Source: Sedimentisphaerales bacterium
Lineage (GTDB): Bacteria > Planctomycetota > Phycisphaerae > Sedimentisphaerales > SG8-4
Direction: 5' to 3'
NCBI GenBank assembly: GCA_016928975.1
Contig: JAFGJR010000250.1
Coordinates: 1-53,014 of the forward strand
DNA length: 53,014 bases
In this document: piece by piece, positions 550-38,492 of the stretch
Layout: every line of letters begins with the position of its first letter
Numbering within the stretch: position 1 is the first letter of the stretch
Notes under the pieces: generated by a model
The model's input: only the letters and a program-made list of their open reading frames with translations
Database searches by the model: none
What the model was told of the DNA's origin: nothing
Program-made: the position numbers and the translations under genes

Positions 550-555
550 GACCGT

Positions 556-585
556 AGTATACCATCCAGGCAGTACCCAAATCAA
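556..585 (-). promoter_or_regulatory. Predicted leaderless promoter of hicBA
   Basis: On the minus strand TTGATT, an 18-base spacer and TATACT are followed by only six bases (ACGGTC) and then the hicB ATG. Transcription would start at or within a base or two of the start codon, and no Shine-Dalgarno sequence is present. The same spacing recurs at several other genes in this window, which raises confidence. Confidence 0.6.
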
Positions 586-665
586 CGAGTCTCCGCGACG
601 ATCAGACCCGTACTCTGCACGAGGTAGCTCGCGTTCCCGTATGCGAACTGGCATCGCGTGGCCGA

Positions 666-1166
666 TCAGGTCCGGACGATGAAGTAGATGGTAAGCTCCA
701 GGACGATCGTGGAGAAAACTCCCGCCGCCACGTCGTCCAGCAGGATGCCCCAGCCGCCAGGGAAGGACTCCAACTTTCTTATGGGCCAGGGTTTGACAAT
801 ATCGAAAGCCCGAAACAGGAGGAATCCGAACAGGGCGATCCAGAGGCCCTCCCCGCCGGACACATCTCGTGGCAACAACAGCGGAATCGCCAGGAGCGTG
901 AGCGCCTGCCCGGCGAATTCATCCATCACGACCTCGCCGGGATCGTCCTTTCCTACCGCCGCCACCGATGCCGGCGCACAGCAAAGACAAGCGACCGACC
1001 CCAGCACGATCATCGCACCCATGATGACTGTGGTCCCGCCGGGCGGCACGTCGATGTACATGAGCAAGCCGAACATGATTACCGGCGGAAGCGACCCCCA
1101 GGTCCCCGGCGCCACCGGCAGCCACCCCAACCCAAAACACACTGCGATCCATCGTTTCACAGTCAT
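666..1166 (-). CDS. pgpA: Phosphatidylglycerophosphatase A
   Basis: This 166-residue membrane enzyme dephosphorylates phosphatidylglycerol phosphate to phosphatidylglycerol. The family hallmarks are visible: FGLGWLPVAPGTWGSL at residues 11-26, DEFAGQ at 82-87 with the acidic catalytic residues, and FDIVKPWPI followed by GGWGILLDDVAAG near the end. Hydrophobic segments lie between these motifs. I chose MTVKRW as the start; an in-frame start 14 codons upstream would run into the preceding gene. It begins one base after the stop of the TOPRIM-like gene at 1168, so it may be transcribed from the defence-like cassette upstream. Length and motifs are normal. Confidence 0.9.
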   Translation of the reverse strand: MTVKRWIAVCFGLGWLPVAPGTWGSLPPVIMFGLLMYIDVPPGGTTVIMGAMIVLGSVACLCCAPASVAAVGKDDPGEVVMDEFAGQALTLLAIPLLLPRDVSGGEGLWIALFGFLLFRAFDIVKPWPIRKLESFPGGWGILLDDVAAGVFSTIVLELTIYFIVRT

Positions 1167-1167
1167 A

Positions 1168-1749
1168 TCACGTGCTCTGGGCAAAGAAGGTTCGCAGGCG
1201 GTCCTCAAGATCAGCGAGCTCCGGACAAACCGACAGAAGCCCCCGGTAGTTGGCCAGCGTCTCGCGGGTCAAGCGCTCTCGACCACCGCCAGGGCTGCGG
1301 CTATCCCCAAATTGATTGAGAAACGGCTCGAACACGTTCTCCTTCAAATGTGGGTGTTGGCGCACATCTCCCCAGGAGAGTGTCAGCTTGTCCCGGTGAC
1401 CAGCCAATAACCACGCCTCGACTTCAGGCGTCGCGGCACAGCAAAAGAGATGAATGCCTTGCCCAGTCAATTCGGTCTCCAGAGCCGCCAAGCCGCTTGC
1501 GCGGTCGCCATCGGGCAGAAACAGCCACAGATGCAAATGCTTGTAGCGGTCGACGAGGTCGCCCCGGATCGCACTGATTGCGTGAGCGTAGCCATTCAGT
1601 TTGGGGTTGGTCAGCACCGTCACGTCCGCGTTTGGCTTGCCCAGTTCCGTCAGCATCCGCTCAACGATAGGCTTGAGAATGTAGCCATTATAGGTCGGGT
1701 CTTCGGGAATGATAAGCACCCGAAAGCTCACAGGGCGGTCTCCATCCAA
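1168..1749 (-). CDS. TOPRIM-like partner of an SMC-type ATPase (uncharacterised)
   Basis: This 193-residue protein has no name I can give with certainty. Three acidic signatures resemble a TOPRIM/OLD-type nuclease core: an N-terminal strand ending in IIPEDPTYNGYI (Glu15), a WLFLPDGDRA strand with a D-x-D (about residues 75-84), and AATPEVEAWLLAG (about 104-116) with a conserved E-x-W. The first 22 bases overlap the 3' end of the ATPase gene, so the two are co-translated. Pairs of an ABC/SMC-like ATPase and a TOPRIM-like effector are the architecture of PARIS (AriA/AriB) and related defence modules. That parallel is by layout and motifs only. The protein could instead be a DUF4276-, DUF3226- or RloB-like member. 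Confidence 0.6.
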   Translation of the reverse strand: MDGDRPVSFRVLIIPEDPTYNGYILKPIVERMLTELGKPNADVTVLTNPKLNGYAHAISAIRGDLVDRYKHLHLWLFLPDGDRASGLAALETELTGQGIHLFCCAATPEVEAWLLAGHRDKLTLSWGDVRQHPHLKENVFEPFLNQFGDSRSPGGGRERLTRETLANYRGLLSVCPELADLEDRLRTFFAQST

Positions 1750-2903
1750 CCTTCCGCAAACAGGTCGCTGATCGGCTGCTTGCTCACGATCTCATTGAAC
1801 CGAGGAATCTCGTTCAGAGGAACGATCCGCGACTCGCCGGTCTCCTCCTCGCGCCTGCAATAGAATGTGGTGGCGTACTCCTCCGGCTTGAGCCACGCCA
1901 ACACGATTGGTGAATGCGTCGTGACCATGACCTGAGTCTTACCGGCCGCGGCTCGACTTCGGAGCAACTCGACCAGCAACCGCAACCGGCTGGCATGAAT
2001 GCCATTCTCGATTTCCTCTATCGTGAGGATGCCCGGCATGTCCGGCTGAAAGAACGCCGCCGCAATCGCCGCAAAGCGGAGCGTCCCGTCCGAGAGAGCC
2101 GGCGCAGGCCATTCACGGCCTCTCTCTTTCATCATCACCATCGGCTCACCCAGCGCGCCCTTCAATACGCCGACATCATCCACGTCACGAGGCCGCAGCT
2201 CTCGTAGCCAACTCAGGTACGCTTCCTTGATCGCGGGGTCATTACAGATCATCCGAATCAACGCGGCGAAGTTCTCCCCATGCTCACCCATCCGCTTGAT
2301 TTCATAGGCCTGCGAGTACGCACGCAACAGCACCGGCGAAGGGTCGATCCGTTGCATATCAGCTAAGAGACGCGGTAAGAGTTCGACTCTCCGATCAGCC
2401 CTGCGAGCGATTTGCGTCAAGACCGGACGGTCGTCGTCGATATCAGCCCACTCCTCCTTATGGGTCTGGCTGAAGTAATGGACCTGCCTGTGTGGGAGCA
2501 CCCTCGTCGGCCCAGCCGAGTAGATGAATTGCCCGGGGATAGACAAAGACTCCTGGCAAAACTGCCCCTCCTTTGGCGAGAAGGTAATCGACAACCCAAG
2601 CTCTTCTGGGAGTCTCCAATCAACCCGGAAGGACGTAGGTTTGTTCGCCTCCTCAGGGGCAAATCCAATTCTTTCGCTTCCGCCACGGATGCCTTCCCAG
2701 ACCTCGCTTGTGGCGCTTTTGGGTTTGCCGTCGAGGATCTCAGAGAGTGTGAAGCCGTAGCCGATGCCTTGGAGGACGCGAAGGGCGTCGAAGAAGTTAG
2801 ACTTGCCGCTGGCGTTTGGGCCAATGAAGATATTCAGAGGCCCCAGCTTGAGGGTCACGTCCTTGAAGCTCTTGAAGTTCTTAATCGTTATCCGTTCGAT
2901 CAT
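1728..2903 (-). CDS. SMC/RecF-like AAA ATPase of a two-gene cassette
   Basis: From MIERITIKNFKSFKDV the protein is 391 residues. Walker A GPNASGKS lies at residues 28-35, an ABC-like signature LSDGTLRFAAIA precedes Walker B ILTIEEIENGIH, and a TTHSPIVL switch histidine follows. This is the AAA_21/AAA_15 group of stand-alone SMC-type ATPases that act with a nuclease or other effector. The next gene, overlapping by 22 bases, is the TOPRIM-like protein. A sigma70-like promoter lies just upstream. Its -10 box ends seven bases before an in-frame GTG at 2912 (GTG AGC CCT ATG), so a leaderless GTG start adding three residues is a real alternative to the ATG used here. The specific biological target is unknown. 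Confidence 0.85.
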   Translation of the reverse strand: MIERITIKNFKSFKDVTLKLGPLNIFIGPNASGKSNFFDALRVLQGIGYGFTLSEILDGKPKSATSEVWEGIRGGSERIGFAPEEANKPTSFRVDWRLPEELGLSITFSPKEGQFCQESLSIPGQFIYSAGPTRVLPHRQVHYFSQTHKEEWADIDDDRPVLTQIARRADRRVELLPRLLADMQRIDPSPVLLRAYSQAYEIKRMGEHGENFAALIRMICNDPAIKEAYLSWLRELRPRDVDDVGVLKGALGEPMVMMKERGREWPAPALSDGTLRFAAIAAAFFQPDMPGILTIEEIENGIHASRLRLLVELLRSRAAAGKTQVMVTTHSPIVLAWLKPEEYATTFYCRREEETGESRIVPLNEIPRFNEIVSKQPISDLFAEGWMETAL

Positions 2904-2919
2904 AGGGCTCACCGACACG

Positions 2920-2948
2920 AGTGTACCGCAGGGAGAGTAACCCTGCAA
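2920..2948 (-). promoter_or_regulatory. Predicted promoter of the ATPase/TOPRIM cassette
   Basis: Minus strand TTGCAG, a 17-base spacer and TACACT, then seven bases to an in-frame GTG at 2912 and 16 to the ATG at 2903. The cassette therefore has its own promoter, immediately after the stop codon of the dGTPase-like gene. Confidence 0.55.
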
Positions 2949-2956
2949 CAGATAGT

Positions 2957-4057
2957 CTACGAAGCCGTGACGCCGAGGCGCTTGAGGCAGTAGCGGTCGG
3001 TCATGCCGGCGATGTAGTCGCAGACGACCCGGTGCAGGCCGTGCTCGGGGATGAAGTCACGGAAGTAACCGGGCATCCGCTGAGGGTCGCGACAGAGCTG
3101 CTCAAAAAGCTCGGTCAGCCAGCCTCTTGCCCTCTGTGCGGCCGTCACCAGCTTCTCGTGGTGATAGAAGTCCGCGTACAGGAATCGTTCGAGCTCCGCC
3201 AGCAACCCGTCGCTCTCATCTGAGAGTCTGACTAGGTCCTCCGCTCGGTCGCAGGCCTGGCAAGGGGTCTGGATGCCGGCGTCGGCGATCTGTCTGTGGC
3301 TGGTGTCGATGCAATCGCTGACGAGCCGGTCCGTGATGGTCTTGGCCGTGCGGGTCCGCCGGATCGTCCAGTCCGGGATACGCTCGACACCGACTTTCTT
3401 CGTCGCGTCGGTATAGATCTGCACGTGCCGCATCTGGTTGCCGTCGATCAGCCGGGCACGAAGGCCGTCCTCCAGGTCGTGACAATTGTATGCGATACGG
3501 TCGGCCACGTCGGCCACCTGGCCTTCCAGCGTGCAGTTGGCCTCGGCGAAGCTGCGGTCCTCGGACAGATCGTACGGACTGTTGTGCTTGGCCAGGCCCA
3601 GCCGGGTCTCGTACATCAGGTTCAGTCCCAGGAACGCGGGGTACGGATGCTCGAGCAACGTCACGATGCGCAGCGTCTGGGCATTGTGCTCGAATCCGCC
3701 GTAGCCGGCCATCAGCTCGTTGAGCACTTGCTCGCCACTATGCCCGAATGGCGGATGCCCAAGATCGTGGCCGAGGCAAATCGCCTCCGTGAGGTTCTCG
3801 TTGAGTCCGAGCACTTTGGCGATGGTCCTGCCGATCTGGGCGACCTCGATGCTGTGCGTCAGGCGGGACCGGTAGTAGTCGTCGAGTCCGGGAGAGAGGA
3901 CCTGGGTCTTGCCCTCGAGGCGCCGGAACGCCGAGCTGTGGATGATCCGGTCGCGGTCCCGCTCGAAATCCGAGCGGTATGGATGGGGCGGCTCAGAGAA
4001 GGCTCGGCCCTTGCTCACCGCCTCCTTGACAGCATAGGATTGAAGTCCATCCGACAT
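2957..4057 (-). CDS. dgt: dGTPase-like HD-domain dNTP triphosphohydrolase
   Basis: The 366-residue protein matches the deoxyguanosinetriphosphate triphosphohydrolase-like family (type 2, shorter than the roughly 500-residue E. coli Dgt). It starts with PHPYRSDFERDRDRIIHSSAF and carries the HD metal site: RLTHS (His68), CLGHDLGHPPFGHSG (His97, Asp98) and the later AYNCHDLEDGL. Family members remove triphosphate from dNTPs and help control pool balance; some protect against phage by depleting dNTPs. The upstream region carries a short tandem repeat and no clear promoter that I can see. The gene ends nine bases before the promoter of the ATPase cassette, so the two are adjacent but probably separate units. 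Confidence 0.9.
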   Translation of the reverse strand: MSDGLQSYAVKEAVSKGRAFSEPPHPYRSDFERDRDRIIHSSAFRRLEGKTQVLSPGLDDYYRSRLTHSIEVAQIGRTIAKVLGLNENLTEAICLGHDLGHPPFGHSGEQVLNELMAGYGGFEHNAQTLRIVTLLEHPYPAFLGLNLMYETRLGLAKHNSPYDLSEDRSFAEANCTLEGQVADVADRIAYNCHDLEDGLRARLIDGNQMRHVQIYTDATKKVGVERIPDWTIRRTRTAKTITDRLVSDCIDTSHRQIADAGIQTPCQACDRAEDLVRLSDESDGLLAELERFLYADFYHHEKLVTAAQRARGWLTELFEQLCRDPQRMPGYFRDFIPEHGLHRVVCDYIAGMTDRYCLKRLGVTAS

Positions 4058-4077
4058 CGAGACTCACTCTGCGATAC

Positions 4078-4113
4078 GTCCTATCCGTCTCATTCGTCCT
4101 GTGGGTCCTATAC
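4078..4113. repeat. Imperfect 9-bp tandem repeat upstream of dgt
   Basis: Four consecutive 9-base units, GTCCTATCC, GTCTCATTC, GTCCTGTGG and GTCCTATAC, share the pattern GTCYYRTNN. They lie in the 100-base gap between the HIT gene and dgt. Such degenerate tandem motifs look like a dispersed genomic repeat rather than an operator. Confidence 0.6.
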
Positions 4114-4157
4114 GCCCCCCAAGACTCACAGGATGGATGAGGCGTTTCGTCCCGCTC

Positions 4158-4667
4158 TCACACACTCGGCAGATTCTGCTCCGCACTCACCTTTTTCAGC
4201 TCCGCCAGCAGATCATCCAGCGACTGGCTGATGACCTTGGTATCGCTACAGACCGCCATGAAATTCGTATCTCCATCCCAGCGCGGCACGACGTGGACGT
4301 GCATGTGCCCGGGCAGGCCCGCCCCGGCGCAGCGCCCGAAGTTCAATCCCACGTTGAAGCCGTGCGGGCCAATGGCCAGCGACAGCGCCCTCTGCGATTC
4401 GCGCACCAGCTTGATCAGCTCCAGCATCTCGTCCTCCGACGTCTGGCCGAGCTCGGCGATGTGCCGCGCCGGGGCCACGAGCAGATGCCCGTTGTTGTAC
4501 GGGAAGCGATTCAGGACCACGAGGCTCCTGTCGGTCCGCCACAGGACCAGGTTCTCCTGGTCCTTCTCGGGATGCGCGTAGTTGTGGCAGAGAAAACAGT
4601 CACTGGTCTTCTCGATCGCCCGGATATAGGGAATTCTCCACGGAGCCCACAGGTTGTTCTGTTTCAA
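4158..4667 (-). CDS. HIT-family nucleotide hydrolase/phosphorylase
   Basis: The protein has the C-terminal histidine triad HMHVHVVPRW (about residues 121-130) and an N-terminal LWAPWRIPYI typical of the Ap4A phosphorylase/HIT group found beside lipid genes in actinobacteria and planctomycetes. Two cysteines in DCFLCHN (residues 24 and 27) may bind zinc together with later histidines. Members act on dinucleoside polyphosphates or nucleotide-AMP adducts. Start choice: an in-frame GTG at 4685 is followed directly by GGGAGG, which looks like the ribosome-binding site itself. The TTG at 4667, ten bases after that site and giving MKQNNLWAPW, is therefore preferred. The exact substrate is not determined. 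Confidence 0.85.
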   Translation of the reverse strand: MKQNNLWAPWRIPYIRAIEKTSDCFLCHNYAHPEKDQENLVLWRTDRSLVVLNRFPYNNGHLLVAPARHIAELGQTSEDEMLELIKLVRESQRALSLAIGPHGFNVGLNFGRCAGAGLPGHMHVHVVPRWDGDTNFMAVCSDTKVISQSLDDLLAELKKVSAEQNLPSV

Positions 4668-4689
4668 GATGCCGTTACCTCCCACTCAC

Positions 4690-4832
4690 AAGAAATACGA
4701 AGCACGAAATCCGAAACCACGAAATCCAAAGGCCCCAAACGCGATCACCGCTCGCCCGACCCGTTTCGAATTTTCGGTTCTCCTTCAGTTGAGCCTGTTT
4801 CAAATTCCGATATTCGTATTTCGCATTTCCGA
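4690..4832. repeat. Degenerate inverted repeat rich in GAAATNCGAA motifs
   Basis: The left arm holds GAAATACGAAGCACGAAATC and CACGAAATCC. The right arm holds the complementary pattern TTTCGAATTTTCGG and ATTCGTATTTCGCATTTC. About 35 bases of unrelated sequence separate the arms. The right arm runs into the 3' end of the next gene and supplies its last codons and stop. Confidence 0.6.
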
Positions 4833-5843
4833 GTCCAACAATTCCATCGTCAGGGTCTGGTCGATCCGGATGTGCGGGCTCGCCCGAATCCCGATGGGCG
4901 GCAGCGAGGCATCCATCTCTACCGTATATCTCTGCTGATAGCTCTCCACCCGGCCGACGTCGACGTTGAACAGCTCCTGCCCCTCGCCCACCAGGCTCGA
5001 CGGCTGATACGCGCCGAGGAAGCCGAACGTGCCGCTCATCTGGAATCGGCCGGAATAGGGCACCGGCCAGCTCGTCGGCGCCTGCTCGGCCAGACGGTAC
5101 GTGCTCCGAATGACCGCCACGCGCCCCTTGTCCGTCTGGCGGATCTCATCGAGTCGATAGGCGACGTCCCGGGCCGCGCGCATCACCATCGGCGTCGGCA
5201 CTGAGAGTTGAGACGACCACGCCCGTCCGAGGGGCACACCGCCGGCAGGCCGCTCGATGCTCGATTCCGCATCCCACAGAAACCACTGGCCGGCGACGAA
5301 ATCGCCGATCATGTCGGGCTCCTTGATCCGCCGGCCCTCGGTGCCGCCCCGGAATGCGCGCTCGCCCATTTCCTGAATCAGCGATTGAAGCTCTGCATTA
5401 TCTACGATGCGGCCGCGAGGGTCCGCCTTGAGGACGAAGGTCTTGCCCTGCGCGGTCTCTGCGGCGTCGGCCGCGGCGACCCGGCGGCCGGGCCCGCCGC
5501 CTCGCGTCGCCTTCACGGACTCACACACTGCACGGATCGTGCTGATCCCGTACGGGTCCACCTCGACCGGCGTGTAGGCGACGACCACCTCCAGTTGCTC
5601 CCACTGCTCCTGCACCCTGTCGGCACGGGATTGCGTGCGGGGGTCCCAGTCCAACGTGATCTTGCGGCTCGAGACGAACTTGTAGCGCAGCGTCTGTCCC
5701 GGCTGGAAATCCACCGTGAACAGCACAGCCTTGCGAGAGAGCGCTCCGCCGGGGGACGAACACCCGCCCAGCAGCATCAGGACCGCCAGGGTCCCAGCCG
5801 TACATGCTATCTTCAAGCTCTGTCTCCTCCACGCCATCGTCAC
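4800..5843 (-). CDS. Lipoprotein, DUF6263-like, copy 2 of a tandem pair
   Basis: This 347-residue exported protein has an N-terminal basic stretch, a hydrophobic segment and a lipobox LMLLGGCSSP with the lipidated cysteine at about residue 28. The mature part begins FTVDFQPGQTLRYKFVSSRK, the opening strand pattern of DUF6263-type proteins, and is mostly predicted beta structure; no catalytic motif is apparent. It overlaps the upstream paralogue by four bases (ATGA) and shares its layout, so the pair probably arose by duplication and is co-transcribed. The last residues (MRNTNIGI) are encoded by the dispersed repeat, suggesting that an ancestral stop codon was lost when the repeat arrived. Function is unknown. 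Confidence 0.8.
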   Translation of the reverse strand: MTMAWRRQSLKIACTAGTLAVLMLLGGCSSPGGALSRKAVLFTVDFQPGQTLRYKFVSSRKITLDWDPRTQSRADRVQEQWEQLEVVVAYTPVEVDPYGISTIRAVCESVKATRGGGPGRRVAAADAAETAQGKTFVLKADPRGRIVDNAELQSLIQEMGERAFRGGTEGRRIKEPDMIGDFVAGQWFLWDAESSIERPAGGVPLGRAWSSQLSVPTPMVMRAARDVAYRLDEIRQTDKGRVAVIRSTYRLAEQAPTSWPVPYSGRFQMSGTFGFLGAYQPSSLVGEGQELFNVDVGRVESYQQRYTVEMDASLPPIGIRASPHIRIDQTLTMELLDSEMRNTNIGI

Positions 5844-6862
5844 TTCACCAGCTCAAGCCGTCGAAGCCAATTGGCCGCCATCTTCACCGCCGCCGGGTCG
5901 GCTTCGCCCTGGGCCGCCTCCGGGCTCAGCATCAGCCATTCCGTGCGCATCTGCTCGCTGCATTCGCGGACCCGCCCGTTCTCAAGCTCGAATACGCACC
6001 GGCCGCTGTAGTTGCTCGTGGTGTCGAGCGATGCGCCAAACGGGCCCATCGCCTGTGGCCCTGGCGTCTGCCCGGCAGCGGGGATTGCCTTCATATCCAC
6101 TATGGCCAGCCGTCCGTCATCACCCTCGGAAACCTCACGGAGCGTGTATACCCGCTCGAACGATTTCGAGCCCATCATGGAGAAGGAGAAGCTCTTCACG
6201 CTCGTCCAGCTCTGGCCGGGACGCACCGTGTCTTCCGTCAAGGCAGCCAACGGCGGCAGGGTGTGCCGCTCCTTGATTCCCTCGTCGGACAGAAGTCTCT
6301 GAGCCGTCGAATGGGCGGGGGAATCCGCCGGGATCGCAGAGCGAGCCTCAGCCGCGTCTACGACCTCCAGCATGTCGCCACGGCGGGAAAGCTTGATCCG
6401 GTAACTCTGACCGATGAGTCTGGCCAGCGGATTGGCCCGGCTCGCCTCGTTCTCGCTGTCGAAATCGAGAGTCAGCCGGTTGTGGATACGATTCGAGTAC
6501 TTCAGGGCCCGGATGGTGATCCGGACGATCGCGTCGCCGGACGCATCGATGCTCTCGACCTCCTGTTCGAACGTCATCTCAATCCGGTTGTCCGAGCGCC
6601 CGTCTTCAAAGCCGGCCGGCCTCGTCGATTCCGCCCCCTGCCAGGTCACGCTCTTTTCCTGCTCCAGGGTGGTCCTGTAGGTGGCGGTTGTCTTTGGCGT
6701 CAGTCGCAGTGTCAGGTCCACCGCCGATTTCGATTCGTCGGCTTGTGGCTCCGTTTGAACCCTTGGGCCCGAACCACTGCCGCTCCCGCACCCGCAGACC
6801 ATCAGCATCAAACCGGCAAAGCCCCCGCAGACGATGATATCGATTCTAAGCTCTCGTGCCAT
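5840..6862 (-). CDS. Lipoprotein, DUF6263-like, copy 1 of a tandem pair
   Basis: From MARELRIDII the protein is 340 residues, with a signal sequence ending in a lipobox (LMVCGCGSGSG). The mature region opens with VDLTLRLTPKTTATYRTTLE, the same motif pattern as its downstream neighbour. It also contains an RPGQSWTSVKSF segment that corresponds to FVAGQWFLWD in the paralogue. A further in-frame start 12 codons upstream is possible but would put charged residues before the signal. The two genes overlap by four bases. Both are likely outer- or inner-membrane-anchored periplasmic proteins of unknown role. Confidence 0.8.
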   Translation of the reverse strand: MARELRIDIIVCGGFAGLMLMVCGCGSGSGSGPRVQTEPQADESKSAVDLTLRLTPKTTATYRTTLEQEKSVTWQGAESTRPAGFEDGRSDNRIEMTFEQEVESIDASGDAIVRITIRALKYSNRIHNRLTLDFDSENEASRANPLARLIGQSYRIKLSRRGDMLEVVDAAEARSAIPADSPAHSTAQRLLSDEGIKERHTLPPLAALTEDTVRPGQSWTSVKSFSFSMMGSKSFERVYTLREVSEGDDGRLAIVDMKAIPAAGQTPGPQAMGPFGASLDTTSNYSGRCVFELENGRVRECSEQMRTEWLMLSPEAAQGEADPAAVKMAANWLRRLELVK

Positions 6863-7109: not shown

Positions 7110-7139
7110 AGTCCGTGCATTTTTCGGAGAAGTTCGACA

Positions 7140-10005: not shown

Positions 10006-10206
10006 TCACTTCTTGGCCTTCTTCCGCGTCGCTTTGCCCACTCGCTTGGTACGGCGCAGAGCAGCCTCGAAACGCCCAGGCACTGCCGCACGATCAAAGT
10101 AGGCCGTCGTTTCCTCAGGGGTTATTCCCTCGGTTTCCTTGGCGACAGCCCCGTTCCATTTCCGCGACTCGGCCACGGCACCGGACTACTTCATCCCGGG
10201 TTTCAT
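10006..10206 (-). pseudogene. Small gene interrupted by an in-frame TAG at codon 7
   Basis: A clear promoter ends six bases before an ATG at 10206. That ATG opens MKPGMK and hits TAG at codon 7. The same frame continues without a stop as SGAVAESRKWNGAVAKE, TEGITPEETTAYFDRAA and a lysine-rich tail ending at 10008. The KETEGITPEE-x-x-AYFDRA pattern resembles small antitoxin-like proteins. Either the gene is newly inactivated, or translation restarts at the GTG at 10176 to give 56 residues. It is too short for ordinary ORF lists. Real coding potential is inferred from the frame continuity and the promoter match. Confidence 0.45.
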
Positions 10207-10212
10207 GGATGA

Positions 10213-10240
10213 ATCATAGCACGTTTTGGGGGATCTACAA
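10213..10240 (-). promoter_or_regulatory. Predicted leaderless promoter of the small interrupted gene
   Basis: Minus strand TTGTAG, a 16-base spacer and TATGAT, then six bases (TCATCC) before the ATG at 10206. The geometry is the same as at hicB, brnT, smpB and ruvB. Confidence 0.5.
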
Positions 10241-10705: not shown

Positions 10706-10995
10706 GGCTCTTCCCGTGTATATCTCTTGGACTCGTTCTTCGTCGGCTTTCTGGCGGAGATGATCCGAATCCGAGTTCCATTCGCGCGTACGGCGTAATG
10801 GACAACCAGCCGCCGCAGACGCGAACTGATTCCTAACATCAGGAAACGGTCTTCGTCCGCCGAATGGTCGGGATCGAAGAATTCCGTGGCTCTCTCATCA
10901 AAGAACACCGTCATCGCCTCTTCGAAAGACACGCCGTGCTTCCTGACGTTCTGTGCCGCCTTGCGTTCATCCCACGAGAAGCGAATGTCCTTCAT
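10702..10995 (-). CDS. brnT: BrnT-family ribonuclease toxin
   Basis: This 97-residue toxin begins MKDIRFSWDERKAAQNVRKH, followed by GVSFEEAMTVFFDERA, RFLMLGISS, LVVHYAVRANGTRIRIISAR and KPTKNESKRYTREE. The RIISARKPTKNE-x-x-x-Y block is the BrnT signature with residues of the RelE-like active site. The gene order brnT then brnA and the overlap are standard. The promoter reads TTGACG-N17-TATAAT and stops six bases before the ATG, predicting a leaderless transcript. The system appears intact. Confidence 0.9.
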   Translation of the reverse strand: MKDIRFSWDERKAAQNVRKHGVSFEEAMTVFFDERATEFFDPDHSADEDRFLMLGISSRLRRLVVHYAVRANGTRIRIISARKPTKNESKRYTREEP

Positions 10996-11001
10996 AATTA
11001 C

Positions 11002-11030
11002 ATTATATTGCTTTGAGCATTATGCGTCAA
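11002..11030 (-). promoter_or_regulatory. Strong leaderless promoter of brnTA
   Basis: Minus strand TTGACG, a 17-base spacer and a consensus TATAAT, then GTAATT and the ATG of brnT. This is the closest consensus sigma70-type promoter in the window, and no ribosome-binding site could fit between it and the start codon. Confidence 0.75.
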
Positions 11031-20885: not shown

Positions 20886-21959
20886 CTACTGTAGTCCGGA
20901 CGCCGGCAGTTGGTCAAGATTGAATAGGTCTGGCTGACCGGTCTGGCTTTCTTTTCGAGGCCGCACCTTGAGGCCGAGATGGTCGCAGGCTTGCTTGGTG
21001 ATCTCCCGGCCTCGCTTGGTCCGCCGCACGAAACCGATTTGCAGGAGGTAGGGCTCGACGACGTCTTCGAGGGTGTCTCGTTCCTCGCCGAGCGTGGCGG
21101 CGATCGCCTCGATGCCGGCCGGACCGCCCTCGTAGACGGTCGCCAGCGCTCGCAGGACGGACCTGTCCAGCTCATCCAGACCCAGCGGATCGATCTGCTC
21201 CATGTCCAGCGCGTTGTCCACGATCGTCGCACTGAGGATGCCGGAGCCTTTGACCTGGGCATAATCGCGAACGCGCTTCAGCAGGCGGTTGGCGATGCGA
21301 GGCGTCCCCCGCGAGCGTGCGGCGATCCGTTCCAACGTGCCGTTCTCGCAGTGCAGCTTGAGCAGTTGTGCGGAGCGCCGCAAGATCTGCGTCAGCTCGT
21401 CCGGGCCGTAGAAGTCGAAATGGTAGAGCATGCCGAACCGGCTGCGAAGCGGGGCGCTGAGCAGGCCGGCACGCGTGGTTGCCCCGATCAGGGTGAATCG
21501 CTTGAGCGGGAAGTTGATCGTCTTGGCGTGCAGGCCGCTATCGACCGTGTAATCGACGCGGAAGTCCTCCATCGCCGGGTAGATGAACTCCTCGACCGGG
21601 GTGCTGAGCCGGTGAATCTCGTCGATGAACAGCACGTCGCCGGCGCCGACGTTGGTGAGCAGGCCCATCACGTCGCCGGCCTTGACCAGGGCCGGACCCG
21701 ACGAGCAGCGGATGCGCGCGCCCATCTCATTGGCGACGACGTGCGCGAGGGTGGTCTTGCCCAGGCCGGGCGGGCCGTAGAACAGGATATGCTCCAGGGG
21801 TTCGCCACGCTTTTGGGCCGCTTCGATGGCGATGACGAGCTTGTCCCGCATATTCTGCTGGCCGATGCACTCGTCCAGAAGCCTCGGACGCAGCGATACG
21901 TTGAAGCTCTCTTCGGCCTCATTCAACGATTGTCCACTTATAACTCTACCGATCGGCAT
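20886..21959 (-). CDS. ruvB: Holliday junction branch migration ATPase RuvB
   Basis: The 357-residue motor has FNVSLRPRLLDECIGQQ, Walker A GPPGLGKT (62-69), Walker B LFIDEIHRLS (111-120), sensor IGATTRAGLLSAPLRSRF, and a winged-helix C-terminus. It drives branch migration with RuvA, with RuvC resolving the junction. Unlike the usual adjacent ruvAB, it is separated from ruvA by a 2.4-kb exported-protein gene. It has its own predicted leaderless promoter (TTGCAG-N16-TAGTCT-N6-ATG), which fits the split arrangement. Confidence 0.97.
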   Translation of the reverse strand: MPIGRVISGQSLNEAEESFNVSLRPRLLDECIGQQNMRDKLVIAIEAAQKRGEPLEHILFYGPPGLGKTTLAHVVANEMGARIRCSSGPALVKAGDVMGLLTNVGAGDVLFIDEIHRLSTPVEEFIYPAMEDFRVDYTVDSGLHAKTINFPLKRFTLIGATTRAGLLSAPLRSRFGMLYHFDFYGPDELTQILRRSAQLLKLHCENGTLERIAARSRGTPRIANRLLKRVRDYAQVKGSGILSATIVDNALDMEQIDPLGLDELDRSVLRALATVYEGGPAGIEAIAATLGEERDTLEDVVEPYLLQIGFVRRTKRGREITKQACDHLGLKVRPRKESQTGQPDLFNLDQLPASGLQ

Positions 21960-21965
21960 GGCACC

Positions 21966-21993
21966 AGACTACCCGATTTCTGCCCCACTGCAA
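21966..21993 (-). promoter_or_regulatory. Predicted leaderless promoter of ruvB
   Basis: Minus strand TTGCAG, a 16-base spacer and TAGTCT, then GGTGCC and the ruvB ATG at 21959. No ribosome-binding site lies between. Confidence 0.5.
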
Positions 21994-29286: not shown

Positions 29287-29603
29287 AGCCGGATGCCCTC
29301 TTTCTCGATCTTACGGACAATTGGGCTGACCCCCATTGGGCCATGCTCAAGTTGCTCGGCGGCGACGACGAACGTCGACAACACCACGTCGTTCTCGAAT
29401 CCAACCTCCCAGGCGACTTCCGAAATCTTCTCGCGAAGGTCGGCATCGATATGGTCCACCACGAGGAACACGTCCAAGTCCGACTCATCAGTCGCGTCCC
29501 CCCTGGCTCTGGAGCCAAAGACACAGAACTCCAGGACGGGCACCAAATCGGCTATGCGTCTCTTGAATTCCAGAGCCGTTTGTCTATCGCTCAGTGCTAT
29601 CAT
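29283..29603 (-). CDS. MNT-type minimal nucleotidyltransferase
   Basis: The 106-residue protein has the nucleotidyltransferase core CVFGSRARGDATDESDLDVF (GSRARG at 30-35, acidic pair in SDLDVF) and a third acidic strand region (FENDVVLSTFVV). MntA-type antitoxins AMPylate their HEPN toxin partner, which is normally encoded immediately downstream. Here only a 23-codon HEPN-like remnant remains, so the gene is probably orphaned. A 13-codon leader ORF overlaps its ATG by four bases and has its own promoter, which suggests translational coupling. Confidence 0.85.
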   Translation of the reverse strand: MIALSDRQTALEFKRRIADLVPVLEFCVFGSRARGDATDESDLDVFLVVDHIDADLREKISEVAWEVGFENDVVLSTFVVAAEQLEHGPMGVSPIVRKIEKEGIRL

Positions 29604-29641
29604 AACAACTCATCCGAGAGTCCTGTGGCATCGCTAAGCAT
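29600..29641 (-). CDS. Short leader ORF overlapping the MNT start
   Basis: ATG at 29641 opens MLSDATGLSDELL and stops with TGA overlapping the MNT ATG (ATGA). The ATG is exactly six bases after the -10 box, so this would be a leaderless leader peptide that couples ribosomes onto the MNT start. It could also be the remnant of an upstream gene. Confidence 0.35.
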   Translation of the reverse strand: MLSDATGLSDELL

Positions 29642-29647
29642 GGCCGT

Positions 29648-29676
29648 ATTCTACCGGTAGAACTGCCGTCGGTCAA
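29648..29676 (-). promoter_or_regulatory. Leaderless promoter of the MNT locus
   Basis: Minus strand TTGACC, a 17-base spacer and TAGAAT, then ACGGCC and the ATG of the leader ORF at 29641. Confidence 0.6.
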
Positions 29677-30106: not shown

Positions 30107-30114
30107 TAGCAATG

Positions 30115-32503: not shown

Positions 32504-33211
32504 ATGAGGAGGAAGCTACGAAAGGATGCGGCGGAGACGCGGCGGCGGCTGCTCGCGGCGGCGGCCGAGGCGTTTGCGGAGAAGGGCTTCTGGGAGGCCA
32601 CCCACGCGGAAATCTGCCAAACGGCCCAGGCCAATACGGCGGCGGTCAACTATCACTTCGGCAGCAAGGAGAACCTATACGTCGAGGCGTGGAAGTACTC
32701 GTTTGAGGAATCGGTCAAGGCCCATCCGCCGGATGGTGGGGTCGGGCCGGAGGCGCCGGCGGCGGAGCGGCTGCGTGGGCGGATTCTGGCGTTCATGCAG
32801 CGTATGGCCGACCCGAACAACCACGAGGTCGAGATCCTGCACAGGGAAATGGCGAACCCGACGGGACTGCTCACCGAAGTCCTGACGCCGGCCCTGGAAC
32901 CGCAGCGGCAGGCCCTTCGTGCGATCATCCGGGAGTTGTTGGGAGGCCAGGCAAGCGAACAGCAGGTGTTCTTCAGCGAGATGAGCCTCATGGGGCAGTG
33001 TTTCGGCCCGATGCTGCACCTGCGTCAGGGATGCTCGGGCTCCCGTGTCCTGCACCCACCGGGGCCGCCTTTGGAGTTCGACGTCGAGGATCTGGTCGAT
33101 CATATCGTCCAGTTCACTCTGGCAGGTATCGAGGCCATCCGCACGGAAGCCCAGAAAGGCCGCAAGGTCTCTGAGAAGCAGCACCGGCGCGGGCATGGCT
33201 TGAAGAAATAG
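32504..33211 (+). CDS. TetR-family transcriptional regulator (CecR-like)
   Basis: From MRRKLRKDAAETRRRLLAAA the protein is 235 residues. The N-terminal helix-turn-helix (FWEATHAEICQTAQANTAAV, then NYHFGSKENLY) is classic TetR. The C-terminal region, with HREMANPTGLLTEVLTPALE, resembles the CecR/YbiH group (DUF1956) that controls MacAB- or YbhG-type export. It leads a five-gene operon with tolC-, macA- and macB-like genes and begins just downstream of a perfect palindrome. GTG at 32483 is an alternative start adding seven residues. The in-frame extension to 32159 is not coding. Confidence 0.9.
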   Translation: MRRKLRKDAAETRRRLLAAAAEAFAEKGFWEATHAEICQTAQANTAAVNYHFGSKENLYVEAWKYSFEESVKAHPPDGGVGPEAPAAERLRGRILAFMQRMADPNNHEVEILHREMANPTGLLTEVLTPALEPQRQALRAIIRELLGGQASEQQVFFSEMSLMGQCFGPMLHLRQGCSGSRVLHPPGPPLEFDVEDLVDHIVQFTLAGIEAIRTEAQKGRKVSEKQHRRGHGLKK

Positions 33212-33220
33212 GAGCGACTC

Positions 33221-34687
33221 ATGAGTGTTTGGCAGGGGACAGCGCGGATGAGAAAGGCCTTGTGGTTGTGCACGTTGCCGGCGGCTCTGGCGATGGCCGG
33301 GTGCGTGGTGGGACCGAATTACGTCCCGCCGAAAGCGCCGACACCCGACACGTGGCACAGCCAGTTGCAGGACGGGCTGGTGGGCGGCGAGGTGGACGCC
33401 GAAGCGTTGACCTCGTGGTGGGCCACACTTGATGATCCGGTGCTGTCGGGCCTGATCGAGCGAGCTGTGGCGGGCAACCTGGACCTCAAGCAAGCGTGGG
33501 CGAGGGTGCGCGAGGCGCGGGCGCGACGGAAGGGCGCTCAAGGCGCGTTCTTCCCGACGCTCGATTCGGCTGCTTCCGCCACGTGGAGCACCAGCGGCGC
33601 GGAGGGCGTGCGAACCGTCAACAATGAGACCTACGCGGCGAACTTCGATGCCGGTTGGGAGTTGGACCTCTTCGGCGGCATTCGCCGCTCGGTGGAGGCA
33701 GCCCAGGCCAATCTGGAGGCCAGCGATGAGGACCTGCGTGACACGCTGGTGTCCCTGCTGGCCGAGACCGCCCTGAACTACGTCGAGGTGCGGACGTTCC
33801 AGGCCCGGCTGGCGGCGGCCGAAGCGAGCCTGAAGACGCAGGAGGAAACCTACCAGTTGACTGTGTGGCGGTCCCAGGCCGGCCTGGGCGACGAGTTGGC
33901 CGCACAGCAGGCGAAGTACAACCTGGAAAACACGCGTTCGCAGGTCCCCTCGTTGCAGACCGGATTGGAGGAAGCGATGAATCGCGTCGCCGTGCTGCTT
34001 GGAGAGCCGCCGGGGCAGGTGCACGCGGAGCTCGCGCGGGCGCAGGCCATCCCGGTTCCGCCGGCGGAGGTGGCCGTGGGTGTCCCGGCAGACGTAATAC
34101 GCCGGCGTCCTGACATCCGGCGCGCCGAACGCAACCTGGCGGCCCAGAATGCCCGCGTCGGCGTAGCCACGGCAGACCTCTATCCTCAGCTCCGGTTGAG
34201 CGGCTCGATCGGCCTGGAAGCTCTGTCATTGGAGGACCTGGCCTCCGGCTCCTGGTTCCTCAGTGGCGGGCCGCGATTGACCCTGCCGCTTTTCAATACG
34301 ACGATTCGGCCCAATATCGAGGTGCAATCGGCCTTGCAGGAGCAGGCGCTGCTCCAGTACGAGGCCGCCGTCCTCAACGCGCTGGAGGAGGTGGAGAATG
34401 CCCTTGTGGCATACGCGCAGGAGCAGCGAAGGAGAGAGAATCTACGCGAGGCGACGAAGGCCGCTCAGGCGGCGGCCGAGCTGGCGCAGTACAAGTACCA
34501 GGCGGGTCTGACGGATTTCAGCAATGTCCTGGACGCGGAGCGGTCGCTCCTGTCGTTCCAGGATCAGTTGCAGCAAAGCGACGGGACGGTGACCTCCAAC
34601 CTGATTCGGCTCTACAAGGCCCTGGGAGGCGGATGGACTTCAACGGCGGTCGCCTCGGCTTCGGGCGAGGCCGGGCAACAGCATTGA
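33221..34687 (+). CDS. Outer membrane efflux lipoprotein (TolC/NodT family)
   Basis: The 488-residue protein has a lipobox (LAMAGCVVG) and the NodT-type opening VGPNYVPPKAPTPDTWHS. It then has two outer-membrane efflux repeats with the long helices and the conserved RRRPDIRRAERNLAAQNARVG, LYPQLRLSGSIG and NALEEVENALVAYAQE. It would form the trimeric outer channel for the MacAB-like pump encoded next. AGGAG seven bases before the ATG supports this start. The gap to the TetR gene is nine bases and to macA 15. Confidence 0.94.
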   Translation: MSVWQGTARMRKALWLCTLPAALAMAGCVVGPNYVPPKAPTPDTWHSQLQDGLVGGEVDAEALTSWWATLDDPVLSGLIERAVAGNLDLKQAWARVREARARRKGAQGAFFPTLDSAASATWSTSGAEGVRTVNNETYAANFDAGWELDLFGGIRRSVEAAQANLEASDEDLRDTLVSLLAETALNYVEVRTFQARLAAAEASLKTQEETYQLTVWRSQAGLGDELAAQQAKYNLENTRSQVPSLQTGLEEAMNRVAVLLGEPPGQVHAELARAQAIPVPPAEVAVGVPADVIRRRPDIRRAERNLAAQNARVGVATADLYPQLRLSGSIGLEALSLEDLASGSWFLSGGPRLTLPLFNTTIRPNIEVQSALQEQALLQYEAAVLNALEEVENALVAYAQEQRRRENLREATKAAQAAAELAQYKYQAGLTDFSNVLDAERSLLSFQDQLQQSDGTVTSNLIRLYKALGGGWTSTAVASASGEAGQQH

Positions 34688-34702
34688 GATATGGAGAAAC
34701 CA

Positions 34703-35992
34703 ATGAGTGCGAAACCACATGCGGAATCGGATATTGCCAAAACCCTCGGCGTTGCCGACGGGGCCGGTCGGCGCCGGCGTCTGAAGCGCTGGCTTGTTCC
34801 TCTGCTGCTGATCGTGGCGCTGGTAGGCTTCCTGGCCCTGCGCAAGAGCCCTGGCGGGTCGAAAGTGGTACAGTATAAGACCCAGGAGGCCAAACGCGGC
34901 GATCTCGTTGTTCGCGTCACGGCCACGGGCACCCTCGAGCCCACTAATGAGGTCGAGGTCGGCAGCGAGATCTCCGGCATCGTCAAAGCGGTCGAGGCGG
35001 ACTACAACGATGAAGTCAGGGTCGGGCAGGTCCTGGCGCGGATCGACACCTCCAAGTACGAGGCTCAGGAGACGCAGTTGAAGGCGGCCCTCGAGTCGGC
35101 CCAGGCCAGGGTCTTGCAGGCCAAGGCGACCCTGAACGAGACGCAGACCAAGCTGGCGCAGCTCCAGCGGGTGCGGGAGCTGAGCGATGGGAAGGTGCCG
35201 TCGCAGACCGAGTTCGATGCGGCCCAGGCGGCGTTGGAGCGGGCCAAAGCCGATGACGCCAGCGCCGCGGCAGCCGTTGCCCAGGCTCAGGCCACTCTCA
35301 AGGCCACGCAGACCGATATCGCCAAGGCGGTCATTCGCTCGCCGATCGATGGCGTCGTTCTGACTCGCCAGATCGAGCCCGGTCAGACCGTGGCCGCCGC
35401 GTTTCAGGCGCCGGTGCTGTTCACTCTCGCCGAGGACCTGACTCAGATGGAGTTGCACGTGGACGTGGACGAGGCGGACATCGGTCAGGTGGGGGACGGC
35501 CAGGAGGCGGAGTTCACCGTAGCGGCATACCTGGATCGGACCTTCAAGGCCAAGATCGTGCAGACCCGCTTTGGCTCCCAGACCGTGGACGGCGTGGTCA
35601 CATATGAGACCGTGCTGAAGGTGGACAACACGGACCTGGCGCTGCGCCCGGGGATGACCGCGACGGCCGATATCACGGTCCAGAAAGTGGAAAATGCCCT
35701 GCTGGTCCCCAACGCGGCCCTGCGGTTCTCGCCGCCGATGCAGGGGCAAAAGAGGGCCTCCCGCGGACTGGTGGGCATGATGCTTCCGGGCCCGCCTCGC
35801 TTCAACGCGCCGCAGGAAGCGGTGGTGGACACGAACAAGAGACAACAGACCCTGTGGGTCCTGAAGGACGGTCTCCCGACGGCGGTTCCCGTGACTATCG
35901 GCGTCTCGGATGGTGCGATGACTGAGGTCGTCTCGGGCGACATTCAGCCGGGCACGCCGGTCGTCGTCGATACCATGGCGACGGGGAGGTGA
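34703..35992 (+). CDS. MacA-like periplasmic adaptor (membrane fusion protein)
   Basis: From MSAKPHAESD the protein is 429 residues. It has one membrane segment (LVPLLLIVALVGFLAL), a split biotinyl-lipoyl domain (ATGTLEPTNEVEVGSEISG and IRSPIDGVVLTRQIEPGQTV), a long coiled-coil hairpin between them, and beta-barrel and membrane-proximal domains. It bridges the MacB permease and the TolC channel. GGAG six bases before this ATG favours it over the ATG four codons earlier. Its stop is two bases before the ATPase start, so the genes are tightly coupled. Confidence 0.92.
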   Translation: MSAKPHAESDIAKTLGVADGAGRRRRLKRWLVPLLLIVALVGFLALRKSPGGSKVVQYKTQEAKRGDLVVRVTATGTLEPTNEVEVGSEISGIVKAVEADYNDEVRVGQVLARIDTSKYEAQETQLKAALESAQARVLQAKATLNETQTKLAQLQRVRELSDGKVPSQTEFDAAQAALERAKADDASAAAAVAQAQATLKATQTDIAKAVIRSPIDGVVLTRQIEPGQTVAAAFQAPVLFTLAEDLTQMELHVDVDEADIGQVGDGQEAEFTVAAYLDRTFKAKIVQTRFGSQTVDGVVTYETVLKVDNTDLALRPGMTATADITVQKVENALLVPNAALRFSPPMQGQKRASRGLVGMMLPGPPRFNAPQEAVVDTNKRQQTLWVLKDGLPTAVPVTIGVSDGAMTEVVSGDIQPGTPVVVDTMATGR

Positions 35993-35994
35993 GT

Positions 35995-36717
35995 ATGATC
36001 GCCTCTACCCAGACAGAAACAACGCCTCTGATCGAGCTGACCGGTGTGACGAAGGTCTATGGTACGGGCCAGGCCGCCATGCAGGCGCTGGCCGGGATCG
36101 ACTTGCGCATCGAAGAAAGGGACTTCGTGGCGATCATGGGCCACAGCGGATCGGGCAAGTCCACGTGCCTGAACATCCTCGGGTGTCTGGACTCGCCTAC
36201 CTCGGGATCCTATCGCTTCCAGGGCGTCGAGGTATCGCAGTTGACCCGCGACCAGCGGGCCAGGTTGCGCCGTTACTACCTGGGATTCGTCTTTCAGGGC
36301 TACAACCTCCTGAAACGGACTTCTGCCATTGAGAACGTGGAACTGCCCTTGATCTATCGCCGGGTGCCCGCCCGGCAGCGTCACCGAATCGCCCGCCAGA
36401 CCCTCGCGTCCGTGGGCCTGGAGGGTTGGGAATCGCACAATCCGAACGAGCTGTCCGGCGGCCAGCAGCAACGGGTGGCGATTGCGCGCGCGATCGTCAC
36501 AGGTCCCTCGGTCCTCATGGCCGATGAGCCCACGGGCAACCTGGACTCTGCCCGCAGCCAGGAAATCATGGAGCTGCTCTCCGGACTCAACCGCGAGCAG
36601 GGGATCACCATCGTCATGGTCACGCACGAGCCGGACATGGCCGCATATGCCAAACGCATCGTCCATTTCAAGGACGGCAGAATCGAATCCGATGAGAAGA
36701 ATGGGAGGGCACACTGA
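35995..36717 (+). CDS. MacB-type ABC transporter ATPase
   Basis: The 240-residue ATPase has Walker A GHSGSGKST, the Q-loop FVFQGYNLLKR, signature LSGGQQQRVAIARAI, Walker B VLMADEPTGNLDS and switch VTHEPDMAA, typical of the LolD/MacB class. GGAGG six bases upstream decides the ATG at 35995 over the GTG at 35989. The permease is a separate gene that starts on the last base of this stop codon, so the transporter is a split MacB. Substrate (macrolide, lipid or peptide) cannot be told from sequence. Confidence 0.95.
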   Translation: MIASTQTETTPLIELTGVTKVYGTGQAAMQALAGIDLRIEERDFVAIMGHSGSGKSTCLNILGCLDSPTSGSYRFQGVEVSQLTRDQRARLRRYYLGFVFQGYNLLKRTSAIENVELPLIYRRVPARQRHRIARQTLASVGLEGWESHNPNELSGGQQQRVAIARAIVTGPSVLMADEPTGNLDSARSQEIMELLSGLNREQGITIVMVTHEPDMAAYAKRIVHFKDGRIESDEKNGRAH

Positions 36718-37922
36718 TGGTCTGGAACACGCTGCTGCTGGCCCTGCGCGAGATTCGCCGCAACGTCATGCGGTCGTTCCTGACCGTGCTGGGCATCGTC
36801 ATCGGCGTGGCGTCGGTGATCACCATGGTGACCCTGGGCAAGGGGGCCACCCAGCAGGTGACCACCTCGATCGCCAGCATGGGCAGCAACCTGTTGATGC
36901 TCAGCCCCGGCAAGCGGATGGGCCCGGGTTCGATGGGATCGGCCCCCGCCTTCAAGGCCGAAGACGGCGAGGCCATTGCCCGCGAGATCGGCGGTATTGC
37001 CCTGGTTGTCCCTGTGGCGAGTCGATCCATCAGCGCGATCTACGGCCATGAGAACTGGTCGACCTCAGTGACGGGCACCACCAGCGCGTTCCTGAGCCTT
37101 CGGAACATGCGACTGGGCAGCGGGCGGTCTTTCAGCGACAGCGAGGCCCGCGCCGGAGCCGCGGTCTGCGTTATCGGACAGACCGTCCGCGAGAAGCTCT
37201 TCGGCGCCCAGGACCCGCTGAACAATCGAATTCGTCTGGGGGCGCTGTCGTTCCAGGTCATCGGCCTGTTGGAGGCCAAGGGCCAGAACAGCATGGGCAT
37301 GGACCAGGACGACATCGTGCTGCTGCCCCTGCGGACCTTCCAGCGAAGGATCGCGGGCAATCACGACGTTAGCCTGATCCAGGTCTCCGTCCAGGACGGC
37401 GTCTCCACGGAAAAGGTCCAGCGGGACATCCGCCTGCTGATGCGGAGTCGTCGCCGTCTGGCCACCAGCGAGGACGACAACTTCAACGTGATGGATACCA
37501 AGGAGATCTCCAGGATGCTCACGGGTACCACCACGATGCTCACCGGCCTGCTCGGAGCCGTCGCGGCCGTCAGCCTCCTGGTCGGCGGCATCGGCATTAT
37601 GAACATCATGCTGGTGTCGGTCACCGAGCGGACGCAGGAGGTCGGCACCCGCCTCGCCATCGGCGCTCTGGAACGAGAGGTGCTCATGCAGTTTCTCGTC
37701 GAGGCGGTGGTGCTGTCATCTTCCGGCGGCCTCTTCGGAATCCTCCTGGGTCTGAGCGCGTCCTTTGCCCTCAAGAACGCGCTGATGGTCCCGTTCGTCT
37801 TCGATCCGACGATCGTCCTGATCGCCTTTGTCTTCTCGGCGGCCGTAGGCGTCGTCTTCGGCTATTTCCCCGCTCTCAAAGCCGCCCGCCTCGACCCCAT
37901 CGACGCCCTCCGCCACGAGTGA
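36717..37922 (+). CDS. MacB-type FtsX-like permease
   Basis: The 401-residue permease has an N-terminal membrane helix (FLTVLGIVIGVASVITMVTL), a large MacB periplasmic core domain (to about 270), and three C-terminal helices. LLVGGIGIMNIMLVSVTERT is the FtsX family signature. It completes the four-part efflux assembly with the outer channel, the adaptor and the ATPase. It ends with KAARLDPIDALRHE, the usual C-terminus. It is the last gene of the operon; smpB follows with its own promoter. Confidence 0.95.
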   Translation: MVWNTLLLALREIRRNVMRSFLTVLGIVIGVASVITMVTLGKGATQQVTTSIASMGSNLLMLSPGKRMGPGSMGSAPAFKAEDGEAIAREIGGIALVVPVASRSISAIYGHENWSTSVTGTTSAFLSLRNMRLGSGRSFSDSEARAGAAVCVIGQTVREKLFGAQDPLNNRIRLGALSFQVIGLLEAKGQNSMGMDQDDIVLLPLRTFQRRIAGNHDVSLIQVSVQDGVSTEKVQRDIRLLMRSRRRLATSEDDNFNVMDTKEISRMLTGTTTMLTGLLGAVAAVSLLVGGIGIMNIMLVSVTERTQEVGTRLAIGALEREVLMQFLVEAVVLSSSGGLFGILLGLSASFALKNALMVPFVFDPTIVLIAFVFSAAVGVVFGYFPALKAARLDPIDALRHE

Positions 37923-37974
37923 CGCGGCTCGGCAGAGACGACCAAGGCAGCCTGTCCCATGGTGCAAACTCGGC

Positions 37975-38003
37975 TTGCAGAAGGGATTCGTTGCGGCTAT
38001 GAT
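37975..38003 (+). promoter_or_regulatory. Leaderless promoter of smpB
   Basis: TTGCAG, a 17-base spacer and TATGAT, then GAGGCG and the ATG at 38010. The six-base gap includes GAGG, but at that position it would lie at or upstream of the transcript start. Confidence 0.6.
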
Positions 38004-38009
38004 GAGGCG

Positions 38010-38492
38010 ATGGCGAACAAATCCTGGAAAAAGGACGAAAGCCCTGTGGCCGTGAACAAGAAGGCCTACCACGACTTCGAGCTGGTGGACAAGTTCGAGG
38101 CGGGGATCGAGCTTCGCGGCAGCGAGGTGAAATCACTTCGAGCGGCCGCCGCGGACCTGACCGGGTCGTACGCCAGGATGCAGGATGGGGAGTGCTGGCT
38201 GGTCGGCACGAAGATCGCCGCCTACCAGCAGGCGGGGAATATGGGCCACGATCCGGCCCGCAAGAGAAAGCTGCTCCTGCACAAAGCGGAGCTGCACCGG
38301 ATCTGGAACAAGCTCGAACAGCGGGGCTTTGCCCTGGTCCCGTTGCGGATCTATTTCACGAAGAAAGGCCTCGCCAAGGTGGAGCTGGCTCTGGCGCGGG
38401 GCAAGCGGCAGTACGACAAGCGCCGGACGATCACCGAGCGCGATCAGAAACGGGATATCGACCGAAGCATGAAGAAGTACAGGGGAAGGTAG
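38010..38492 (+). CDS. smpB: SsrA-binding protein SmpB
   Basis: The 160-residue protein partners tmRNA in rescue of stalled ribosomes. NKKAYHDFELVDKFEAGIEL, RGSEVKSLRAAAADLTGSYA, GNMGHDPARKRKLLLHKAEL and the basic C-terminal tail KRQYDKRRTITERDQKRDID are the family blocks. MANKSWKKDES is the start; the in-frame extension to 37959 covers the promoter. No tmRNA gene is seen in the window. The DUF1844 gene follows five bases after its stop. Confidence 0.95.
   Translation: MANKSWKKDESPVAVNKKAYHDFELVDKFEAGIELRGSEVKSLRAAAADLTGSYARMQDGECWLVGTKIAAYQQAGNMGHDPARKRKLLLHKAELHRIWNKLEQRGFALVPLRIYFTKKGLAKVELALARGKRQYDKRRTITERDQKRDIDRSMKKYRGR

Follow-up and report, generated by a model that had tools for sequence, protein, structure and literature searches.

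A survey of 953 bacterial genomes, in what is available of it, describes for about 206 of them genes led by a TANNNT hexamer about 12 bp upstream of the start codon (TA-led genes), a signal interpreted as the Pribnow box of leaderless mRNAs (Zheng et al., 2011, PMC3160421). In Mycobacterium tuberculosis, transcription of such genes is described as starting at the codon behind a TANNNT -10, and 32 of 37 toxin-antitoxin pairs are listed as leaderless (Cortes et al., 2013, PMC3898074), while in Deinococcus-Thermus a -10 motif lies a few bases before the open reading frame (ORF) and the addition of a -35 is reported to raise expression (Zhong et al., 2025, PMC12340547). Here we describe seven gene starts of this appearance, among them those of smpB and ruvB, in a stretch of 53,014 nucleotides from a Sedimentisphaerales bacterium (Planctomycetota; Phycisphaerae; assembly GCA_016928975.1, contig JAFGJR010000250.1), hereafter the window. 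An earlier annotation made from the sequence of the window alone, hereafter the original prediction, did not recognize this arrangement as a described feature of the lineage. This holds insofar as our literature search, in the parts of the sources accessible to it, returned no report on leaderless transcription in Phycisphaerae or on a conserved leaderless smpB, but a leaderless and/or S1 signal had already been pointed out in one planctomycete genome (PMC5397173).

The starts seen here share with TA-led genes a hexamer of the Pribnow type that keeps a fixed gap to the start codon and has its centre about 10 nt upstream of it. They differ from the class of Zheng et al. (2011) in carrying a -35, and likewise from the leaderless promoters of M. 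tuberculosis, for which the accessible text describes no -35 motif (PMC3898074). According to the same text, no ribosomal protein, initiation factor or elongation factor of M. tuberculosis is leaderless, whereas here the gene of a ribosome-rescue factor, smpB, is the best conserved case. As to frequency, the arrangement is nearer to the 4-5% given for Chloroflexi or Firmicutes than to the 39% of Deinococcus-Thermus; the main text of that survey, as far as it is available, makes no mention of Planctomycetes (PMC3160421). A later estimate for Deinococcus-Thermus, experimentally tested, is about 30% of ORFs (PMC12340547), compared with a few per cent at most here, known from sequence. Thus, what we describe is a known kind of gene start, the TA-led one, in a lineage for which no dedicated report was found, smpB and a small leader ORF before an MNT-type nucleotidyltransferase gene being its most interesting members.

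Seven promoter-adjacent starts in the window

The promoter elements and start codons are as follows (gap, bases between the -10 hexamer and the start codon; spacer, bases between -35 and -10):

547..585, minus strand: hicB-like start; ATG 549-547, gap 550-555, -10 TATACT 556-561, -35 TTGATT 580-585, spacer 18
2910..2948, minus strand: ATPase (AAA_21) start; GTG 2912-2910, gap 7, -10 TACACT 2920-2925, -35 TTGCAG 2943-2948, spacer 17; alternative ATG 2903
10204..10240, minus strand: interrupted small gene; ATG 10206-10204, gap 6, -10 TATGAT 10213-10218, -35 TTGTAG 10235-10240, spacer 16
10993..11030, minus strand: brnT start; ATG 10995-10993, gap 6, -10 TATAAT 11002-11007, -35 TTGACG 11025-11030, spacer 17
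21957..21993, minus strand: ruvB start; ATG 21959-21957, gap 6, -10 TAGTCT 21966-21971, -35 TTGCAG 21988-21993, spacer 16
29600..29676, minus strand: MNT leader ORF; ATG 29641, TGA end 29600, gap 6, -10 TAGAAT 29648-29653, -35 TTGACC 29671-29676, spacer 17
37975..38012, plus strand: smpB start; -35 TTGCAG 37975-37980, spacer 17, -10 TATGAT 37998-38003, gap 38004-38009, ATG 38010-38012

The seven promoter-adjacent starts are confirmed. On re-reading, all six starts for which the original prediction had placed a -10 hexamer 6 nt before an ATG (549-, 10206-, 10995-, 21959-, 29641- and 38010+) match, including that of the MNT leader ORF; the seventh, 2912-, has the TACACT, the seven bases and the GTG that had been described for the ATPase, and a TTG-type -35 at a spacing of 16-18 bases is present at every site. 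Across the 1,579 ATGs on both strands of the window, TTG-(16-18)-TANNNT occurs six times at gap 6, and because all six reported sites fit this pattern, these occurrences are the reported sites. The same pattern averages 0.72 occurrences at the 60 other gaps between 0 and 60 (Poisson P = 1e-4 for gap 6), and 300 dinucleotide shuffles of the window give a mean of 0.26 and a maximum of 3 at gap 6; the comparison with shuffled sequence thus reveals an excess when a -35 is demanded. When this requirement is dropped, the excess of TANNNT at gap 6 is weak (12 vs 5.45, P = 0.01, with a shuffle maximum of 14). The words GGAG, GAGG and AGGA are absent in six of six candidate genes, three of them scored at their called starts (2903, 21926 and 29603), compared with 24 of 50 other genes of the window.

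RNA polymerase usually starts about 7 bases past the -10 hexamer. With such a start, a gap of 6 would make the A of the ATG the +1 position, and a gap of 7-8 would leave a leader of one or two bases. The seven sites would then be ordinary sigma70-type promoters from which transcription starts at, or within about 2 bases of, the start codon; such mRNAs would have no room for a Shine-Dalgarno (SD) site, and initiation would take place at the 5'-terminal AUG. The set of genes expressed in this way would be small, comprising smpB in the sampled Phycisphaerae-type genomes and ruvB in a single clade of high GC content, along with several toxin-antitoxin-type genes and the small ORF overlapping the MNT gene.

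Conservation of the arrangement in related genomes

The most extensive evidence comes from smpB, which was searched for in 50 genomes reached through ruvB and found in 45, with no match in five. Its 5' region is readable in 42 of these, L107, L164 and L165 having been dropped because the contig ends before it. When in-frame starts and gaps of 0-30 were scanned for the best promoter, the best gap was 6 in seven genomes, 7 in 28 and 8 in six (41 of 42); in the remaining one, L113, the scoring picked an ATG at gap 1, and an in-frame ATG two codons downstream lies at gap 7, so that a gap of 6-8 is present in all 42 if this alternative is counted. By a near-identical procedure, with ties allowed, 113 of 561 control genes from two genomes had their best gap at 6-8. 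The smpB -35 is of the TTG type in 38 of 42 (mostly TTGCAA or TTGCCA), and the -10 is TANNNT in 41 of 42 (mostly TATNAT). Among the 28 gap-7 cases, identity amounts to 88% in the -10, 81% in the -35 and 36% in the discriminator between hexamer and start codon, and the SmpB proteins themselves range from 84% to 55% identity. At the smpB start of E. coli, TANNNT is absent from gaps 6-8. The comparison lends good support to leaderless-type promoters, since the gap is conserved while the bases within it change. However, the word "exactly" in the original prediction, which had put the hexamer exactly six bases before the start, is too strict: the class spans gaps of 6-8, with gap 7 enriched across genomes and usual for smpB. 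The window also encodes a tRNA-Ser (GGA) at 40322-40411 on the minus strand; ARAGORN found no transfer-messenger RNA in the window, although smpB sits there.

For ruvB, the comparison covered the best 80 loci, titled Phycisphaerae, Sedimentisphaerales or other Planctomycetota, with two titled "uncultured bacterium"; RuvB of the window shares 84% identity with its counterpart in Phycisphaerales bacterium UBA2218. The arrangement TTG-(16-17)-TANNNT-N6-ATG is retained at 12 of the 80 loci, which form one clade in the RuvB tree (support 0.84), a grouping made after the promoters were seen and corresponding to 12 of the 14 loci with a GC content of at least 0.60. Within these promoter-bearing loci the six-base discriminator has a mean identity of 48%. 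Outside the clade, a -35/-10 pair occurs at gap 7 in L011, and in seven loci TANNNT stands at gap 6-7 before ATG without a TTG -35, the remaining loci having neither. The window itself is placed beside a promoter-less locus, L042 (support 0.92), by a tree in which the nodes placing this pair are weak (0.39-0.55); its SmpB is most similar (82-84%) to those of five members of the 12-locus clade, the genome of L042 lying outside the smpB search. Separately, a gene of about 185 codons located 2-3.5 kb downstream of ruvB in five lower-GC loci is preceded by TTG-TANNNT-N6-ATG and is apparently another conserved gene with a putative leaderless start, at these positions:

L053: 13055
L059: 4648
L060: 8686
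L066: 13882
L068: 13837

The MNT locus differs in that the promoter precedes a small ORF. This ORF, at 29641, has 13 codons, is out of frame with MNT and ends in a TGA that overlaps the MNT ATG (29603-29601) by 4 bases in the word ATGA, an overlap that adds to what had been read there. The search returned 37 MNT matches, seven of them without a locus; those examined were seven close orthologs and 23 remote homologs. Both TTG-TAGAAT-N6-(A/G)TG and the small ORF are retained in five of the seven close orthologs, and in four of these five the leader stop overlaps the MNT ATG by 4 bases (in L184 the leader stops 6 bases short of it). In L185, L186 and L187 the leader has 46 codons of partly conserved sequence, in L183, L184 and the window 10-13 codons, and it may be what is left of a genuine small protein. 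Another close ortholog, L181, lacks the small ORF; there, a -10-like TAAAAG, which is not TANNNT, lies 6 nt from the MNT ATG itself. In three remote homologs (L193, L197 and L208), a full promoter stands immediately upstream of the gene's own in-frame ATG, at gap 6-7, and on these grounds the MNT-type nucleotidyltransferase family may be leaderless more widely. Shell and colleagues reportedly described leaderless small ORFs in mycobacteria in 2015. The MNT leader resembles these as a short ORF that precedes another gene and would be translated from an AUG at the 5' end; unlike them, it ends in the 4-base ATGA overlap with the MNT gene, and it is suggested that the small ORF could pass ribosomes to MNT by termination-reinitiation.

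The remaining sites have fewer relatives. The close orthologs of the hicB-like gene (L222, L223 and L224; 84-86% identity) have TANNNT-N6-ATG in three of three cases and a TTG -35 in two; the hicB label given by the original prediction stands as a weak family match (UPF0150, 20.4 bits vs a cut-off of 27.3). For the ATPase, the seven-base gap to GTG 2912 is correct as read, but the single ortholog at E below 1e-20, L221, has TACACT-N6-ATG with a start codon that corresponds to ATG 2903 of the window, gap 6 there. Among 15 brnT matches, 13 could be aligned and two could not; the full TTG-TANNNT-N6-ATG is present in five of the 13, namely in L166, L167, L175 and the distant L176 and L177, and hence in three of three homologs that reach 70% identity (L166, L167 and the partially matching L175). 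The ORF at 10206, which the original prediction had called interrupted, is indeed halted by TAG after six codons. Behind its good promoter, the frame past the TAG (10006-10206, minus strand) is open for about 60 codons, and it looks like a broken small gene.

Excess across relatives and share of genes

Genome-wide counts were made in relatives rather than in the window's own genome. In 12 whole genomes chosen for their ruvB promoter, TTG-N20-TANNNT-Nd-ATG occurs 178 times at d=5, 546 at d=6, 395 at d=7 and 250 at d=12, compared with 54, 75, 108 and 62 for the patterns read backwards, and every one of the 12 genomes has more matches at d=6 than at d=5 or at d=12. In eight genomes, a scan of both strands with a stricter -35 (TTGAC, spacer 18) gave 30 matches vs five for the reversed pattern. 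The original prediction had named the lack of a genome-wide excess of TANNNT-N6-ATG among its refutations; the excess is found in these 12 relatives. It persists in the eleven genomes without G006, the genome of L019 (152, 429, 355 and 223 for the same four distances). The high count of G006 (117) is due largely to a single repeated element (e.g., L213-L217) with the promoter TTGACACC...TAGGCT-N6-ATG, which often lies about 55 bases from the first base of its contig and is probably an unassembled mobile repeat with its own leaderless-type start.

The share of genes concerned appears to be low. Strong promoters in 619 genes, those of the window included, are distributed by their gap to the in-frame ATG as one at 0-5, 11 at 6-9, five at 10-24 and 28 at 25-40, two humps that are expected for a mixture of leaderless and leadered genes. 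Two counts over 794 kb of two relatives lead to a rough estimate of about 1-3% of genes for the leaderless-type class, and the window is denser in such sites than this estimate. A Deinococcus-like share (about 20-40%) is ruled out for these two relatives. The likeness to Deinococcus and actinobacteria drawn by the original prediction does not extend to how widely the arrangement is used, the class being a small minority of genes in the two relatives; its leaderless reading is partly supported, by promoter geometry and conservation, with neither the exact six bases nor a Deinococcus-like extent.

Competing explanations and implications

Several results weigh against such a reading or narrow it. 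A full promoter at gap 6-8 is missing in 20 of 23 remote MNT homologs, four of four remote hicB homologs and eight of 13 aligned brnT homologs; 67 of the 68 ruvB loci outside the clade have no TTG -35/-10 pair at that distance, and one close MNT ortholog, L182, has neither leader ORF nor promoter. The 12 genomes of the pattern counts are a selected sample. In the 794 kb, the -35 pattern over all ATGs occurs 15 times at gap 6 vs about six elsewhere, with gaps 7-9 slightly raised, and the ATG starts of 577 called genes in these two relatives yield three cases at gap 6 and seven at gaps 6-8. In the 68 other ruvB loci (969 kb), gap 6 before ATG has 37 occurrences and the maximum, 41, is at gap 22; before GTG, gap 6 is the highest (41).

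An alternative that we regard as unlikely is transcription mainly from sites further upstream, giving mRNAs with 5' leaders; the hexamers would then be secondary promoters or AT-rich stretches that bind S1 or prevent structure from forming at the start codon. AT-rich signals at -20 to -10 in genes without an SD site were ascribed to S1 or leaderless mRNA in work that included one planctomycete genome, as far as its text is available (PMC5397173), and the lack of a simple SD 4-mer in 24 of the 50 non-candidate genes of the window is also consistent with this explanation. However, smpB keeps a full -35/-10 promoter in 38 of 42 genomes over a poorly conserved discriminator, gap 5 is not raised in the 12 genomes while gaps 6 and 7 are, and strong promoters are almost lacking at gaps 0-5 and few at 10-24. 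That the true start codons lie elsewhere and the promoters merely look adjacent is highly improbable: longer upstream ORFs exist for hicB (ATG 654) and smpB (ATG 37959) and the gene caller chose TTG 21926 inside ruvB, but the RuvB match starts at residue 1 in 80 of 80 loci, the open frames of the close hicB orthologs measure just 60-72 amino acids, and the promoter-adjacent ATG of most smpB orthologs is at most three codons from the aligned start in the window. Least probable of all is that chance matches were picked up by scanning 53 kb. The weak enrichment of TANNNT alone and a window richer in sites than the two relatives predict would fit this, but the excess is strong once the -35 is included, and the gap is retained in at least some orthologs at six of seven sites. 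As an explanation, chance is disfavoured by this ortholog conservation and stands for 10206 alone.

It is thus very likely, judging from sequence comparison, that these promoters are placed so that transcription starts at or near the start codon, and translation would initiate at a 5' AUG. A broader idea, more speculative and in our view doubtful, is that Phycisphaerae maintain a small dedicated leaderless set, with SmpB locked into leaderless expression throughout the class; joined by RNase toxin-antitoxin genes, it would make up a stress set whose mRNAs are still translated if canonical 30S/Shine-Dalgarno initiation breaks down.

With these findings, the lineages in which leaderless gene starts are likely come to include a deep branch of Planctomycetota, most of it uncultured. 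They also provide an unusually clean comparative case, in which the smpB promoter stays 6-8 bases from its ATG across 42 genomes despite turnover of the sequence in between, and they yield a practical guide to start-codon choice when such genomes are annotated. Additionally, they suggest connections of leaderless expression with ribosome rescue and with toxin-antitoxin genes that can be tested.

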